Made by a program: the position numbers and the translations under genes. Shown one piece after another: positions 46,680 through 53,509 of a stretch of DNA of 64,000 nucleotides. How positions within the stretch are numbered: position 1 is the first letter of the stretch; every line of letters starts with the position of its first letter. Where the stretch lies: NCBI RefSeq assembly GCF_000802205.1, contig NZ_CP012850.1:1488001-1552000 (forward strand), written 5' to 3'. The notes under the pieces were generated by a model that was not told where the DNA came from, searched no databases, and saw only the letters and a program-made list of their open reading frames with translations. The DNA comes from Candidatus Nitrosocosmicus oleophilus (lineage in GTDB: Archaea; Thermoproteota; Nitrososphaeria; Nitrososphaerales; Nitrososphaeraceae).

Positions 46680-47226
46680 TTTCACCTTAATTTTATTACA
46701 AAAATACTTCATTTATTGATCAAAAAAAGATAGATAGAGATAAAAGATCTATAACAAACAATCTACAAGAATCAGGGTTTGTATAGCTACCGGTTGGGGT
46801 ATCTATGAACATAGAAAAGGACATAATTTTATATCTTTTCTATAATTCTAGGATTCATTGGTTTTGAGTCCTAATTGTAAATATTTTGAGTATATTTAAC
46901 TTGGGAATGTTTTCTGTTCTGTTGGTCCACTAGATTTTAGACCAGATGTCTCCTTTCTACTAAATATTGGATATTGCGCTCTTCTAATCAGTATGGGTAA
47001 ATGTTTTTTGTCGAAGGGAAAAACCGGCAGCACTTTTGGAAAGTTTCAATGACAAACCAATCCATGATGTTTGAAATTATAGATGAGGGGAGAAAAAAAG
47101 ATAGAACCTTTGATATAGACTCAAACCGATAACAGAATATATGACCATATCACTATTCATCTTTTTAGGTGTTATTACATTTATAGATCTGAATTTAAAT
47201 ATCTTGGTATGCAATGCAAAGTGCAA
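46680..47226. other. Intergenic stretch, 547 bases
   Basis: AT-rich. A minus-strand frame at 47077-47391 runs antisense over the YHS gene and is not a gene. Nothing else seen. Confidence 0.3.
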
Positions 47227-47371
47227 ATGGCAAAAGACCCAGTTTGTAGTATGAACGTGGATGAAAAGACTGCAAAAACATGTATCGAAAATTGGCGGAA
47301 ACAAGATATATTTATGTTCTTCTACATGCAAACAACAATTCGATAAGAATCCTTCAAAATATGGATATTGA
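47227..47371 (+). pseudogene. Stand-alone YHS/TRASH metal-binding domain, frameshifted
   Basis: Begins MAKDPVCSMNVDEKTAK from the ATG at 47227; near 47281 the frame slips, and the next frame continues VSKIGGNKIYLCSSTCKQQF then DKNPSKYGY, ending at 47371. Joined, this is a complete ~47-residue YHS domain with Cys ligands (DPVC, LCSSTC), much like the N-terminus of the CopA at 48385 (MAKDPICGM, FCSSQC). One extra base (T after AAAACA) explains it. Small YHS proteins bind copper or mercury in the cytosol. Either inactivated or a sequencing error. Confidence 0.75.
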
Positions 47372-47399: not shown

Positions 47400-47912
47400 C
47401 TAGTCAATTTCGGATATACCGTCATATTTTCTTTTTATCGATTCTATTCTGCCTCGATATTTTTCAGCATATCCTGATTTGCATGATATACAACAGAAGA
47501 ATCGTTCAATATCTGCGAATTTTAGAATCTTAGGTTTACCATAGACAGGTCCATCACAGAAATCACAAGTAACGCTTATTGTTAGGCCACTTTCAATTTT
47601 TTTCTGAATTTCGCCTATCTCTTTTTTTAGTATCTTGTTCTGCGTTTTGTAACCGATGTTCTTTTTTCTTTTCACATTTTCATCAAGGTCCTGCAATTGG
47701 ATGAAATTCTTTTCTTTTGACTCTACCTTATCAAAGTCAAAAATTGGTAGGATCCCCTTGATAAAACCTATGTTAACCAATCTTTCATAACGTGACTTTA
47801 CGGTTGGAGTTGTTATTCTCGTCTCCCTTGATATCTTTCTAAATGACTTTCTGCCGTCCTCTAGTAGTGACCTTATGATAGATACATCAATTTCATCAAG
47901 GCTAAGTGGCAT
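47400..47912 (-). CDS. copR: Copper-responsive Lrp-type regulator with C-terminal TRASH domain (CopR-like)
   Basis: 170 residues. N-terminal Lrp/AsnC winged helix (about 5-60: LDEIDVSIIRSLLEDGRKSF, RKISRETRITTPTVKSRYER), a coiled-coil linker (about 80-110), and a TRASH domain with Cys116, Cys119, Cys140 or 141 and Cys144 (SVTCDFCDGPVYG, RFFCCISCKSGYAEKY). This is the architecture of archaeal CopR/CopT, which senses copper and controls the copA operon. It lies between the YHS gene and the HMA chaperone. A palindrome TTTACATTTGTAAA sits 38 bases before its ATG and again before copA, so it probably regulates both. Confidence 0.9.
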   Translation of the reverse strand: MPLSLDEIDVSIIRSLLEDGRKSFRKISRETRITTPTVKSRYERLVNIGFIKGILPIFDFDKVESKEKNFIQLQDLDENVKRKKNIGYKTQNKILKKEIGEIQKKIESGLTISVTCDFCDGPVYGKPKILKFADIERFFCCISCKSGYAEKYRGRIESIKRKYDGISEID

Positions 47913-47949
47913 ATGAAGTTGTCAATTTACTTGCTTTGTAATAATATTC

Positions 47950-47963
47950 TTTACATTTGTAAA
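47950..47963. promoter_or_regulatory. Candidate CopR operator, copy 1
   Basis: TTTACATTTGTAAA (inverted hexamers TTTACA/TGTAAA with two central bases) lies 38 bases upstream of the CopR-like start (47912, minus), just upstream of an AT-rich TATA-like stretch (47936-47947). An identical 14-mer precedes copA at almost the same distance. Confidence 0.75.
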
Positions 47964-47994
47964 AAGTAATAGCCGAAAATGTTATTAGATTTAC

Positions 47995-48216
47995 TCAGTA
48001 TTGTGGTACTCTAACAAATTTGTATCCTGATTCTTCTAATCTTTCTTTAATGTCGTGTTGAGTTATTTCCAAGGGATCAAATTCTACGATCACTGTATCT
48101 GTTATATTGTTAATATTTATTTTTTTGATTCCTTTTTTATCTTTTAATTGCTTTTCCACAATAGGTTTGCATGTAGTACAATACATTCCGACAACTTTAA
48201 AGTAGACTTTTTCCAT
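47995..48216 (-). CDS. copZ: Copper chaperone, heavy-metal-associated (HMA) domain
   Basis: 73 residues, one ferredoxin-like HMA domain. The metal loop is GMYCTTCKPIVEKQL with Cys13 and Cys16 binding Cu(I); NNITDTVIVEFDPLEI and HDIKERLEESGYKFVRVP are the usual later strands and helix. Hands copper to the CopA ATPase encoded divergently 168 bases away; that CopA has a YHS/TRASH head but no HMA domain of its own, so this separate chaperone makes sense. ATG start. Copper preference is inferred from context. Confidence 0.88.
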   Translation of the reverse strand: MEKVYFKVVGMYCTTCKPIVEKQLKDKKGIKKININNITDTVIVEFDPLEITQHDIKERLEESGYKFVRVPQY

Positions 48217-48332
48217 AATATGTCAATAATTCTTTTCTTGTAATTTATTTAATTGATAGCGCTGTTAAAAAGGATGTAGACAGAGGGTCTTAGACCCAGG
48301 CATTAAAAAAGATGTAACCAAAATAAACTAAT

Positions 48333-48346
48333 TTTACATTTGTAAA
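48333..48346. promoter_or_regulatory. Candidate CopR operator, copy 2
   Basis: A second exact TTTACATTTGTAAA, ending 38 bases before the copA ATG (48385) and just upstream of the TATA-like GTTATATATCT (48354-48364). The matched spacing in the two promoters argues for one regulator, most likely the CopR-like protein. Confidence 0.75.
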
Positions 48347-48384
48347 GCCTTGTTGTTATATATCTATTAATCACTACTCATTGT

Positions 48385-50625
48385 ATGGCAAAGGACCCCA
48401 TATGTGGAATGTTTGTTGAAGAAAATGAAAGTTCCATTCATCATACTAAAGACGGAATATCCTACTATTTTTGCTCGTCTCAATGTTTAGACGAATTTCT
48501 TGAACCCGAGAAGGCCCTCAAAAAATTAAAAATACATGTCCTAATAAGCATAGTATTAACCATCCCAATCGTATTGTTTAGCTTACCACATATGATTCCA
48601 CAATTGGAACACCTCTATCCAATGGAAATGATGGAATATATCAATTACATACTTTTGGCTTTGGCTACTCCAATACAATTTTGGATTGGTTGGCGTTTTT
48701 ACAGAGGATTCTGGGATGGTATCAAATCAAAAGCGTCAAATATGGATACGTTAATTGCTATCGGAACAACAGCCGCTTATATTTACAGCGCCATAGTTAC
48801 CATCTTTCCTGGATACTTCCCTTTTACAGCGGTATACTTTGAAACAAGTGCAATCATAATTACTCTTATCCTGATAGGAAGGCTGCTTGAAACTAAGACA
48901 AAAGAAAAAGCATCAGGTGCGGTTAGAAAGCTTTTAGATCTAAAACCTAGGACTGCACATGTATTGAGACCTGAAATCAGAGAAAAAAATACTGCAGGTT
49001 CCGATGCTAATAAGAATAGTAATAATCCTTTGGATGGTTCTAGACTAAAGCTAGTTTCAAAAGAATTTAGAGAACTTGAAATTCCAGTGGAAGAAATCAT
49101 ACAAGGCGACTTGATGATCATACGCCCAGGAGAAAGGGTTCCCACTGATGGAATGATAGTAGACGGTTCATCTTCGATAGATGAATCTGCGATAACAGGT
49201 GAAAGTATACCTGTTGACAAAGTAAAAGGCGACGAAGTAATTGGGGCAACAATTAACAAAAATGGCCTCTTAAAAGTCAAAGCAACTAAGATTGGTCAAG
49301 ATACAGTATTATCTCAAATCATAACCCTGGTAGAAGAGGCCAAAACAGGTAAATCCAAACTTGAAAGAATGGTGGACCAGGTAGCAAAATATTTTGTTCC
49401 GGCTATTGTAATAATAGCAATCGGGGTATTCCTTGGTTGGTATTTTATTGGGAATGCGGGATTAACTTATTCCGTACTAGCATTTGTTTCTGTCATGATA
49501 ATAGCATGTCCATGTGCTTTAGGATTGGCGACGCCAGCAGCATTAATGATGGGTGCCGCAAAGGGAGCTGAAAATGGTATTTTGTATAAAGGCGGCGAGC
49601 ATATAGAAATAGCAAGTAAAGTCAATTTAGTGGTATTTGATAAAACTGGAACATTAACAGAAGGAAAACCATCTGTTACTGACATAGTAACATTTGATAA
49701 TATAGATGACAACGAGTTGTTAAGACTAGCAGCGATAGGAGAATCAGGGTCTGAGCACCCTTTGGCCAAAGCTGTTATCACAAAAGCCAACGAAAAAGGA
49801 ATTCATGCAGTTTCGCCTGATTCATTTGAAGCGGTAGCAGGTCATGGTCTTATAGCTAAATACTCTGATCATGACATAACGGTAGGAAATAGAAAGATAA
49901 TGCTTGACAATGATATTTCAATTCCTGAAAACATTGAAAAAAGACTTTCGGAATTGGAAAAAGATGGTAAAACAACAGTACTAGTCTCACTAGACAATCA
50001 TTTGTATGGATTAATTGCAATATCTGATACCATAAAGGAAGGTGCCAAAGAAGCGATTCTTGATCTAAAAAACTTGGGAGTTGAATCAATAATGCTCACT
50101 GGAGATAATGAACGGACAGCAAAGGCTGTCGCTTCCAGAATTGGTATTACCCGAGTAATATCTCAGGTGTTGCCACATCAAAAAGAAGAGATCGTAAGCA
50201 GTATACAGACAAAAGAAAAAAGAGTTGTAGCAATGGTAGGTGACGGAATTAATGATGCTCCAGCTTTAGCCCGAGCAGATTTGGGAATTGCAATAGGGTC
50301 CGGAACAGATATTGCCAAAGAAACTGGTGGTATAATATTAATTAGCAACAATATTGGAGACGTTGTAACCGCATTAGAATTAGGAAAGAAAACTGTCTCA
50401 AAAATAAAGCAGAATTTGTTCTGGGCTTTTGCTTATAATACGGGGTTAATACCTGTAGCAGCAGGTGCATTGGTTCCTATTTTGGGACTATCAGTATTTG
50501 GGTGGCTCCCAATTCTTGCTGGATTGGCAATGGCCATGAGCTCTGTCACTGTTGTTACTAATTCTCTTTTTTTGGGAAGATATAAACCAAGAACAATAAA
50601 TAGACCAAAAACAAAATCAGTTTAG
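48385..50625 (+). CDS. copA: Copper-exporting P1B-type ATPase with N-terminal YHS/TRASH domain
   Basis: 746 residues. Pumps Cu(I) out of the cytosol. Residues 1-40 form a YHS/TRASH metal-binding head (Cys7, Cys30, Cys34) in place of HMA domains. The eight-helix P1B core follows: actuator TGES (271-274), the membrane metal site Cys375-Pro-Cys377 in IACPCALGLATPAA, the phosphorylated Asp419 in DKTGTLTEG, SGSEHPLAKA for nucleotide binding, and GDGINDAPAL (about 619). The last helices have the P1B-1 residues (AYNTGLIPVAAG; MAMSSVTVVTNSL). A ~30-residue polar insert at about 200-230 precedes the actuator core. ATG start; CopR operator candidate upstream. Confidence 0.95.
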   Translation: MAKDPICGMFVEENESSIHHTKDGISYYFCSSQCLDEFLEPEKALKKLKIHVLISIVLTIPIVLFSLPHMIPQLEHLYPMEMMEYINYILLALATPIQFWIGWRFYRGFWDGIKSKASNMDTLIAIGTTAAYIYSAIVTIFPGYFPFTAVYFETSAIIITLILIGRLLETKTKEKASGAVRKLLDLKPRTAHVLRPEIREKNTAGSDANKNSNNPLDGSRLKLVSKEFRELEIPVEEIIQGDLMIIRPGERVPTDGMIVDGSSSIDESAITGESIPVDKVKGDEVIGATINKNGLLKVKATKIGQDTVLSQIITLVEEAKTGKSKLERMVDQVAKYFVPAIVIIAIGVFLGWYFIGNAGLTYSVLAFVSVMIIACPCALGLATPAALMMGAAKGAENGILYKGGEHIEIASKVNLVVFDKTGTLTEGKPSVTDIVTFDNIDDNELLRLAAIGESGSEHPLAKAVITKANEKGIHAVSPDSFEAVAGHGLIAKYSDHDITVGNRKIMLDNDISIPENIEKRLSELEKDGKTTVLVSLDNHLYGLIAISDTIKEGAKEAILDLKNLGVESIMLTGDNERTAKAVASRIGITRVISQVLPHQKEEIVSSIQTKEKRVVAMVGDGINDAPALARADLGIAIGSGTDIAKETGGIILISNNIGDVVTALELGKKTVSKIKQNLFWAFAYNTGLIPVAAGALVPILGLSVFGWLPILAGLAMAMSSVTVVTNSLFLGRYKPRTINRPKTKSV

Positions 50626-52510: not shown

Positions 52511-53509
52511 ATGCTTTGTTGCATAATTCCTTATTCTCCGGTTATCATCATGATCATCATGTTATATTCTTCTAAAAATGTTATACAATGATACTTTTAT
52601 CATGATCTCCTTTACCATGTTTTGAAACCTGTTTGCTGATGTGTATTCACCAAACATTCTCTTTATAGCTGAGAACACAGTTTCAGATATCCATCTCTGT
52701 CCGTATTTTCTTTTTGTCTTCCATTTCAACAGATCCTTTGCTTGTAACTTTACTTCGTTGTTCCTTAACCTATTGTTTTTAGGAGAAACAATAGAGTTCC
52801 TTCTTACCTTTATACCTGGATTGATCTTTTTGTCCTCAAGATACACAAAGTTTGGATTTGAATCATAGGCTCCATCAGCTAGTACCGATTTTATCTTTAC
52901 AGTGTTTGGTTCTCTCGAATCCAAAACATGATTGACTAGTTTCTTTAGCATTTTCCCATCATGTACCTTCTCATCTGTCACTTCCAAAGCAATGATTTTC
53001 CTGGTCTTTATGTCTACAGCAACGTGGATCTTGAGATATCCTTTTCTATTTTGTGTATTCCATTTCTCATCCATCCACTGACCTCTGTTAGTAATCTTGA
53101 TACCTGTACTGTCTATTGATATTATTAGGTCATCATCGTCATCCATCTTGTCTCTTTTAATATCGATGTTTAGCTTGTTGATTCGTTTACAGATGTGACC
53201 ATAACTTGGTGGATTAGCAGGTAACCTTTTTCCTGTGGCCTTAATTATACCTTGGGTTTGTCTGTATGGTAGGTGAAATAAATAGCGAATGTAACCAATG
53301 GCCAAGATGAAAGAATCTGGAAATACAAATGGTTTACCCTTTTTGTTTATATTCATATTCTCTATCTCTGAACCCCAACCATCAAGGAAATCATACGAGA
53401 AGAGGATCTCACCGCGTTGAACTAATGAGCGATTGTAAGAGGGCCAGTCTATCACAAATAATCAATCTGTTCATTCCAGCTAAATATGTTGAGTTAGGCG
53501 ACAAAGCAT
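52511..53509 (-). mobile_element. IS5-like insertion sequence, about 1.0 kb
   Basis: One transposase gene lies between imperfect terminal inverted repeats: ATGCTTTGTTGCATAA (52511-52526) and TTAGGCGACAAAGCAT (53494-53509), matching at 14 of 16 positions when reverse-complemented. ATAAAA stands on the outer side of both ends (52505-52510 and 53510-53515), a possible 6-bp target duplication, though AT-richness makes this weak. It lies between genes and disrupts none that I can see. Confidence 0.75.
52562..53455 (-). CDS. Transposase, IS5-type DDE family
   Basis: 297 residues. N-terminal helical DNA-binding part (FPDSFILAIGYIRYLFHLPY, RQTQGIIKATGKRL), then the RNase-H-like core with Asp115 (LIISIDSTGIKI), Asp194 (SVLADGAYDSN) and Glu258 (RWISETVFSAIKRMFGEY). 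All three acidic residues and the Y/R-x-x-x-E-x-x-F motif are intact and the frame is unbroken, so the copy may be active. GYLKIHVAVDIKTRKIIALE is typical of the family. The start codon is an ATG inside the element. Confidence 0.93.
   Translation of the reverse strand: MIDWPSYNRSLVQRGEILFSYDFLDGWGSEIENMNINKKGKPFVFPDSFILAIGYIRYLFHLPYRQTQGIIKATGKRLPANPPSYGHICKRINKLNIDIKRDKMDDDDDLIISIDSTGIKITNRGQWMDEKWNTQNRKGYLKIHVAVDIKTRKIIALEVTDEKVHDGKMLKKLVNHVLDSREPNTVKIKSVLADGAYDSNPNFVYLEDKKINPGIKVRRNSIVSPKNNRLRNNEVKLQAKDLLKWKTKRKYGQRWISETVFSAIKRMFGEYTSANRFQNMVKEIMIKVSLYNIFRRI

Follow-up and report, generated by a model that had tools for sequence, protein, structure and literature searches.

The window, by which we mean the whole 64-kb stretch of DNA analysed, contains a gene for a CopR-like regulator (copR) that is separated from a divergent copA by a copZ-like metallochaperone gene (Table 1). 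Motif scanning found the exact 14-mer TTTACATTTGTAAA twice in these 64 kb, once before copR and once before copA; a promoter scan of the interposed HMA gene found no operator of its own at the usual position. Next to copR lies the relic of a small YHS gene that, aligned with the copy at locus L028, has one inserted base (+1 frameshift) and has lost its frame, and an intact homologue with a perfect operator stands beside the second copR of the genome. A 14-mer before the relic may be a decayed operator; it is a weak candidate, as matches with three mismatches occur in the window at chance level (34 against 30 expected). Elsewhere in the window, at 52562-53455, there is an IS-type DDE transposase with a closely similar ORF near C1:152,200-153,000 (L030).

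Table 1. Genes, promoter elements and predicted operators at the copR-copA locus (window coordinates).
Feature	Coordinates	Strand	Description
Possible decayed operator of the YHS relic	47174..47187	+	ATTACATTTATAGA, 3 mismatches; weak
Frameshifted relic of a small YHS gene	47227..47371	+	From alignment with the L028 copy
copR	47400..47912	-	170 aa; AsnC-type HTH 5-52, linker, TRASH domain 114-153 (Pfam)
TATA-like element of copR	47940..47948	-	AATATTATT, A/T-rich; begins about 1-2 nt past the operator
Predicted CopR operator of copR	47950..47963	.	Exact match, reads TTTACAAATGTAAA from copR; most relatives have it before copR too
copZ-like HMA metallochaperone gene	47995..48216	-	73 aa; between copR and copA; Pfam HMA
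Predicted CopR operator of copA	48333..48346	.	Exact TTTACATTTGTAAA; conserved in relatives
TATA box of copA	48356..48364	+	TTATATATC; begins 9 bp past the operator
copA	48385..50625	+	746 aa; P1B-type ATPase, N-terminal YHS domain; Pfam E1-E2_ATPase, Hydrolase, YHS

The initial annotation had described a 14-base palindrome repeated exactly and at matched distances in both promoters, and had considered this very unlikely by chance. The two exact copies are there, and each is an inverted repeat of 6+2+6 bases (TTTACA-TT-TGTAAA), but the central two bases have no symmetry. The distances agree when measured to the start codons (37 nt to the copR ATG at 47912 on the minus strand, 38 nt to the copA ATG at 48385) but not when measured to TATA (9 bp for copA, about 1-2 bp for copR). 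Chance was rightly dismissed: TTTACANNTGTAAA was observed twice in the window against 0.01 expected from shuffles, none of which contained two copies, and five exact matches in the complete 3.43-Mb genome compare with none for the reversed control pattern. All five fall in two copR loci, two in the window and three in the second. With one mismatch allowed, the genome-wide count equals background (45 against 40 for the control), so that only exact sites stand out; one-mismatch sites elsewhere in the genome, many of them within ORFs or far from starts and without excess over the control, were not counted.

The second copR locus (C1:281617-282444) contains the other three exact sites. Its copR is 74% identical to that of the window and has its own exact site in front, as does the gene for a 47-aa YHS protein, while the third site, TTTACAATTGTAAA, faces an MFS exporter gene. 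This exporter gene starts with TTG about 108 bp downstream of the operator (L028 5432-5554), and between them lie an ORF of about 23 codons and the sequence AGGAGGG, possibly a leader peptide or a coupled start. No TRASH-domain protein other than the two CopR copies was found in this genome.

The window CopR has an N-terminal AsnC/Lrp-type HTH (PF13404, 41.2 bits against a cut-off of 27, with PDB profile matches to Lrp-family HTHs) and a TRASH domain matched by PF24273/PF08394 at E ~1e-4, slightly under the curated gathering cut-offs. Cysteines C116, C119, C140, C141 and C144 are invariant across 19 sequences. In the AlphaFold model (mean pLDDT 67), HTH and TRASH are predicted with fair confidence and the linker between them is disordered; a Foldseek search with this model gave weak Lrp-family matches only (best E 0.0019). 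No Pfam match to the RAM ligand-binding domain (PF01037) was found in the window CopR or in the CopR of locus L112, whereas the domain is present in a 204-aa paralogue (P0004). Because the window CopR lacks RAM by Pfam, unlike this longer paralogue of relatives, it could plausibly bind a compact site as a simple dimer. HTH+RAM+TRASH paralogues of this length (~204 aa; e.g. L123 4017-4631, and at L075, L089 and L126) occur in a few genomes and carry no operator in front.

CopR-like matches were obtained in 73 of 121 related genomes sampled, and promoters were counted in the loci fetched from them. In Nitrososphaeraceae, most copR and copA genes have an exact or one-mismatch site at ~31-57 bp upstream. 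Within 50 bp of the start, exact sites precede 42 of 63 copR genes (45 with one mismatch allowed) and 26 of 37 copA genes (29 with one mismatch), as well as 17 of 23 YHS genes, in these loci; the motif thus holds in the same promoters of relatives. Predicted targets across Nitrososphaeraceae comprise copR, copA, small YHS proteins and the MFS exporter, and further well-placed sites in relatives precede DUF326 (Csp-like), DsbD-like, DsbA-like, DoxX and HtrA-like genes. In a second family, apparently Nitrosopumilaceae, the site is found before CopA, Dsb-like and other genes; at five of its loci (L112, L297, L304, L306, L338) the operator precedes DsbD-like/DsbA-like genes that resemble bacterial Scs copper-defence gene sets. 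The copR promoters without a site belong mainly to one genus, by our inference Nitrososphaera, and to the longer paralogues. In this Nitrososphaera-type genus the site stands before copA, YHS, MFS exporter, multi-HMA CopA and YtkA-like genes, and copR at seven loci (L106, L109, L110, L111, L118, L119, L122) has no operator in its own promoter; autoregulation of copR has apparently been lost there. At the equivalent locus of the closest relative (L067), the copR site is degenerate with two mismatches. Both observations count against the CopR reading. The autoregulation proposed by the initial annotation is thus not universal, but it is likely in this genome, since both CopR copies, the only TRASH proteins found in it, are encoded behind a site.

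In archaea the BRE is located immediately before TATA, and the copR operator therefore covers the BRE position while the copA operator is clear of it. When promoters were aligned on the site, the modal gap between operator and TATA was 9 bp in copA, YHS, MFS, HMA-CopA, DUF326 and DsbD promoters; in most copR promoters it was 0-4 bp, with a median of 1. At about 20 loci divergent copR and copA share a common operator, which abuts TATA on the copR side and leaves the 9-bp gap on the copA side. The two genes are divergent in most loci; in the lineage studied here the chaperone gene is interposed and there are two operators. The site is semi-palindromic and situated just upstream of the BRE/TATA of its predicted targets, as is characteristic of archaeal CopR.

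Presence of CopR predicts presence of the site, which agrees with the earlier proposal of the 14-mer as a candidate CopR site. Nitrososphaeraceae genomes with CopR had on average 3.2 exact sites (control 0.60), those without it 0.8 (control 0.43; p = 2e-5). In the second family, the operator followed by a 9-bp gap and TATA was found in 42 of 73 CopR-positive and 3 of 148 CopR-negative genomes (p about 1e-21), counts copied by hand and with statistics that ignore shared ancestry; the three CopR-negative genomes with the composite count against our interpretation. The strictest control is given by genomes with copA and without CopR: orthologous copA promoters of this family had the site in all 15 CopR genomes (10 exact, 5 one-mismatch) and in none of four near-complete genomes lacking CopR, counts likewise copied by hand and ignoring kinship, while a fifth genome lacking CopR, 61% complete, has it. 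Among 400 genomes the operator with TATA was present in 72 and the reversed control in none. A scan of 84,980 species for this combination returned 42 stretches, about 39 of them from ammonia-oxidising archaea or resembling these and three with bacterial titles. The stretch titled Planctomycetota (L259) has a gene near-identical to a Nitrosopumilus one adjoining the operator and is probably a misbinned archaeal contig. Genome G004 is a counter-case: it lacks CopR and has the longer paralogue alone, but a YtkA-like gene there (L219) is preceded by a well-placed site.

We infer, with a probability of about 0.8, that the 14-mers are CopR operators from which CopR would activate at the 9-bp spacing and repress at copR. 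The sequences themselves show the site, its conservation, its spacing and its co-occurrence with CopR, whereas binding, dimer formation, copper response and sign of regulation belong to this reading. A CopR dimer would bind each TTTACA-N2-TGTAAA palindrome via the N-terminal winged helix, and copper on the TRASH cysteines would alter the behaviour of the bound protein. With the operator 9 bp ahead of TATA (copA, YHS, MFS exporter and other copper genes), the BRE would stay free and CopR would activate at high copper. Where it abuts TATA and lies over the BRE, as at copR, CopR would exclude TFB/TBP and limit its own synthesis. In most relatives a single operator between divergent copR and copA would serve both genes through this asymmetry in spacing. 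Judged from sequence comparison, the predicted CopR site and regulon are of high confidence; confidence in the polarity is moderate. A more specific version, in which a RAM-less CopR dimer sits on a rigid 14-bp operator, a TATA shift of ~6-8 bp alone sets activation or repression, and the operator letters have converged on those that CopY repressors, an unrelated family of bacteria, recognise, is tentative, with odds slightly short of even.

The sign of regulation is where a rival has most to offer. CopR might be a copper-released repressor at all its targets, obstructing the polymerase at the 9-bp spacing. In gel shifts, copper releases the CopR of P. furiosus from DNA (PMC7830388), and under copper limitation the CopA2 of N. 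viennensis was reported as upregulated instead of falling (PMC7785015). In what is likely the N. viennensis genome, the operator-bearing copA beside copZ (L189) appears to be CopA2, so that simple copper activation fits poorly. However, copA sites lie upstream of a free BRE/TATA at near-fixed 9-bp phasing, like the activating position in P. furiosus, and it is the copR site, by contrast, that overlaps the BRE position. General repression therefore seems unlikely to us, though a serious contender.

Other rivals concern the protein that binds. A CopY/BlaI-family repressor is suggested by the site itself, because TTTACAATTGTAAA and close variants of it are proven operators of Lactococcus CopR, a member of the CopY family (PMC7253601). 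But Penicillinase_R (PF03965) had no match in three operator-bearing genomes (G037, G042, G192), was below threshold in the genome studied here and had no Pfam match in the window CopR, and the site follows the HTH-TRASH CopR; a binder of the CopY family, rejected by this search, is very improbable. There is an equally slight chance that the longer, CopT-like RAM+TRASH paralogue of about 204 aa, not the 170-aa CopR, occupies the site. It shares the HTH family, and G004 combines the paralogue alone with one well-placed site. Yet none was found in the present genome, which has five sites, and the promoters of the paralogue itself lack the site, so it was rejected as the binder. That the repeat is a coincidence or a generic promoter element of an AT-rich genome has in its favour the background level of one-mismatch matches; against the count in the window, the absence of the reversed control among 400 genomes and the strict specificity for gene and position, its probability is negligible, and conservation refutes it.

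Regulation of cop genes has been called an open question (PMC7785015). Ammonia-oxidising archaea depend on copper enzymes, and an operator, a regulator and a list of targets make their control of copper export directly testable. The locus also offers a natural case in which one operator is probably an activator or a repressor site depending on spacing, and in which two unrelated copper sensors apparently share a DNA word. No archaeal description of the motif was found in the open-access literature, where an exact-motif search gave only the Lactococcus-type paper, and nothing useful was found on copper stress in Nitrosopumilus.

Among known systems, CopT/CopR of Sulfolobus is of the HTH-TRASH type and reportedly controls copA as well as chaperone genes, and by this description is similar. 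The closest parallel is CopR of P. furiosus (PF0739), whose motif TTNNCAWWWTGNNAA lies directly upstream of the BRE and which in vitro activates copA and represses copR (PMC7830388). Both systems have an HTH and TRASH regulator, divergent copR-copA, a copper regulon beyond copA and, immediately before the BRE, a semi-palindrome TT..CA..TG..AA, and as the promoter anatomy is alike we predict the same regulatory signs here. In contrast to the P. furiosus motif, the present site is one base shorter, near-invariant (12 fixed positions) and near-fixed in its 9-bp phasing to TATA; the predicted targets in ammonia oxidisers include YHS, DUF326, YtkA-like and DsbD/DsbA-like proteins, and this lineage has two separate operators. 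The C-terminal His-rich tail of P. furiosus CopR has been described as specific to Thermococcales (PMC7830388). Promoter motifs reported for copper limitation in N. viennensis, TTCSGSMTTTGWACYANT and RATTTAAABATAGATTTAAATAATAAS (PMC7785015), likewise belong to copper-responsive promoters of the same archaeal family but differ in sequence from the present site. The CopR-CopY 'cop box' of Lactococcus and Enterococcus, TACANNTGTA / RNYKACANNTGTMRNY, serves the same physiology, control of a copper exporter, and TTTACANNTGTAAA is found in five bound L. lactis operators of the CopY-family repressor (PMC7253601). The archaeal 14-mer contains TACANNTGTA, so that the two share operator letters but not family membership: CopY is BlaI-like with CXC motifs, whereas the archaeal sites lie upstream of TATA/BRE. 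Since the archaea tested yielded no good relative of CopY, the likeness of the operators is most simply read as convergent.
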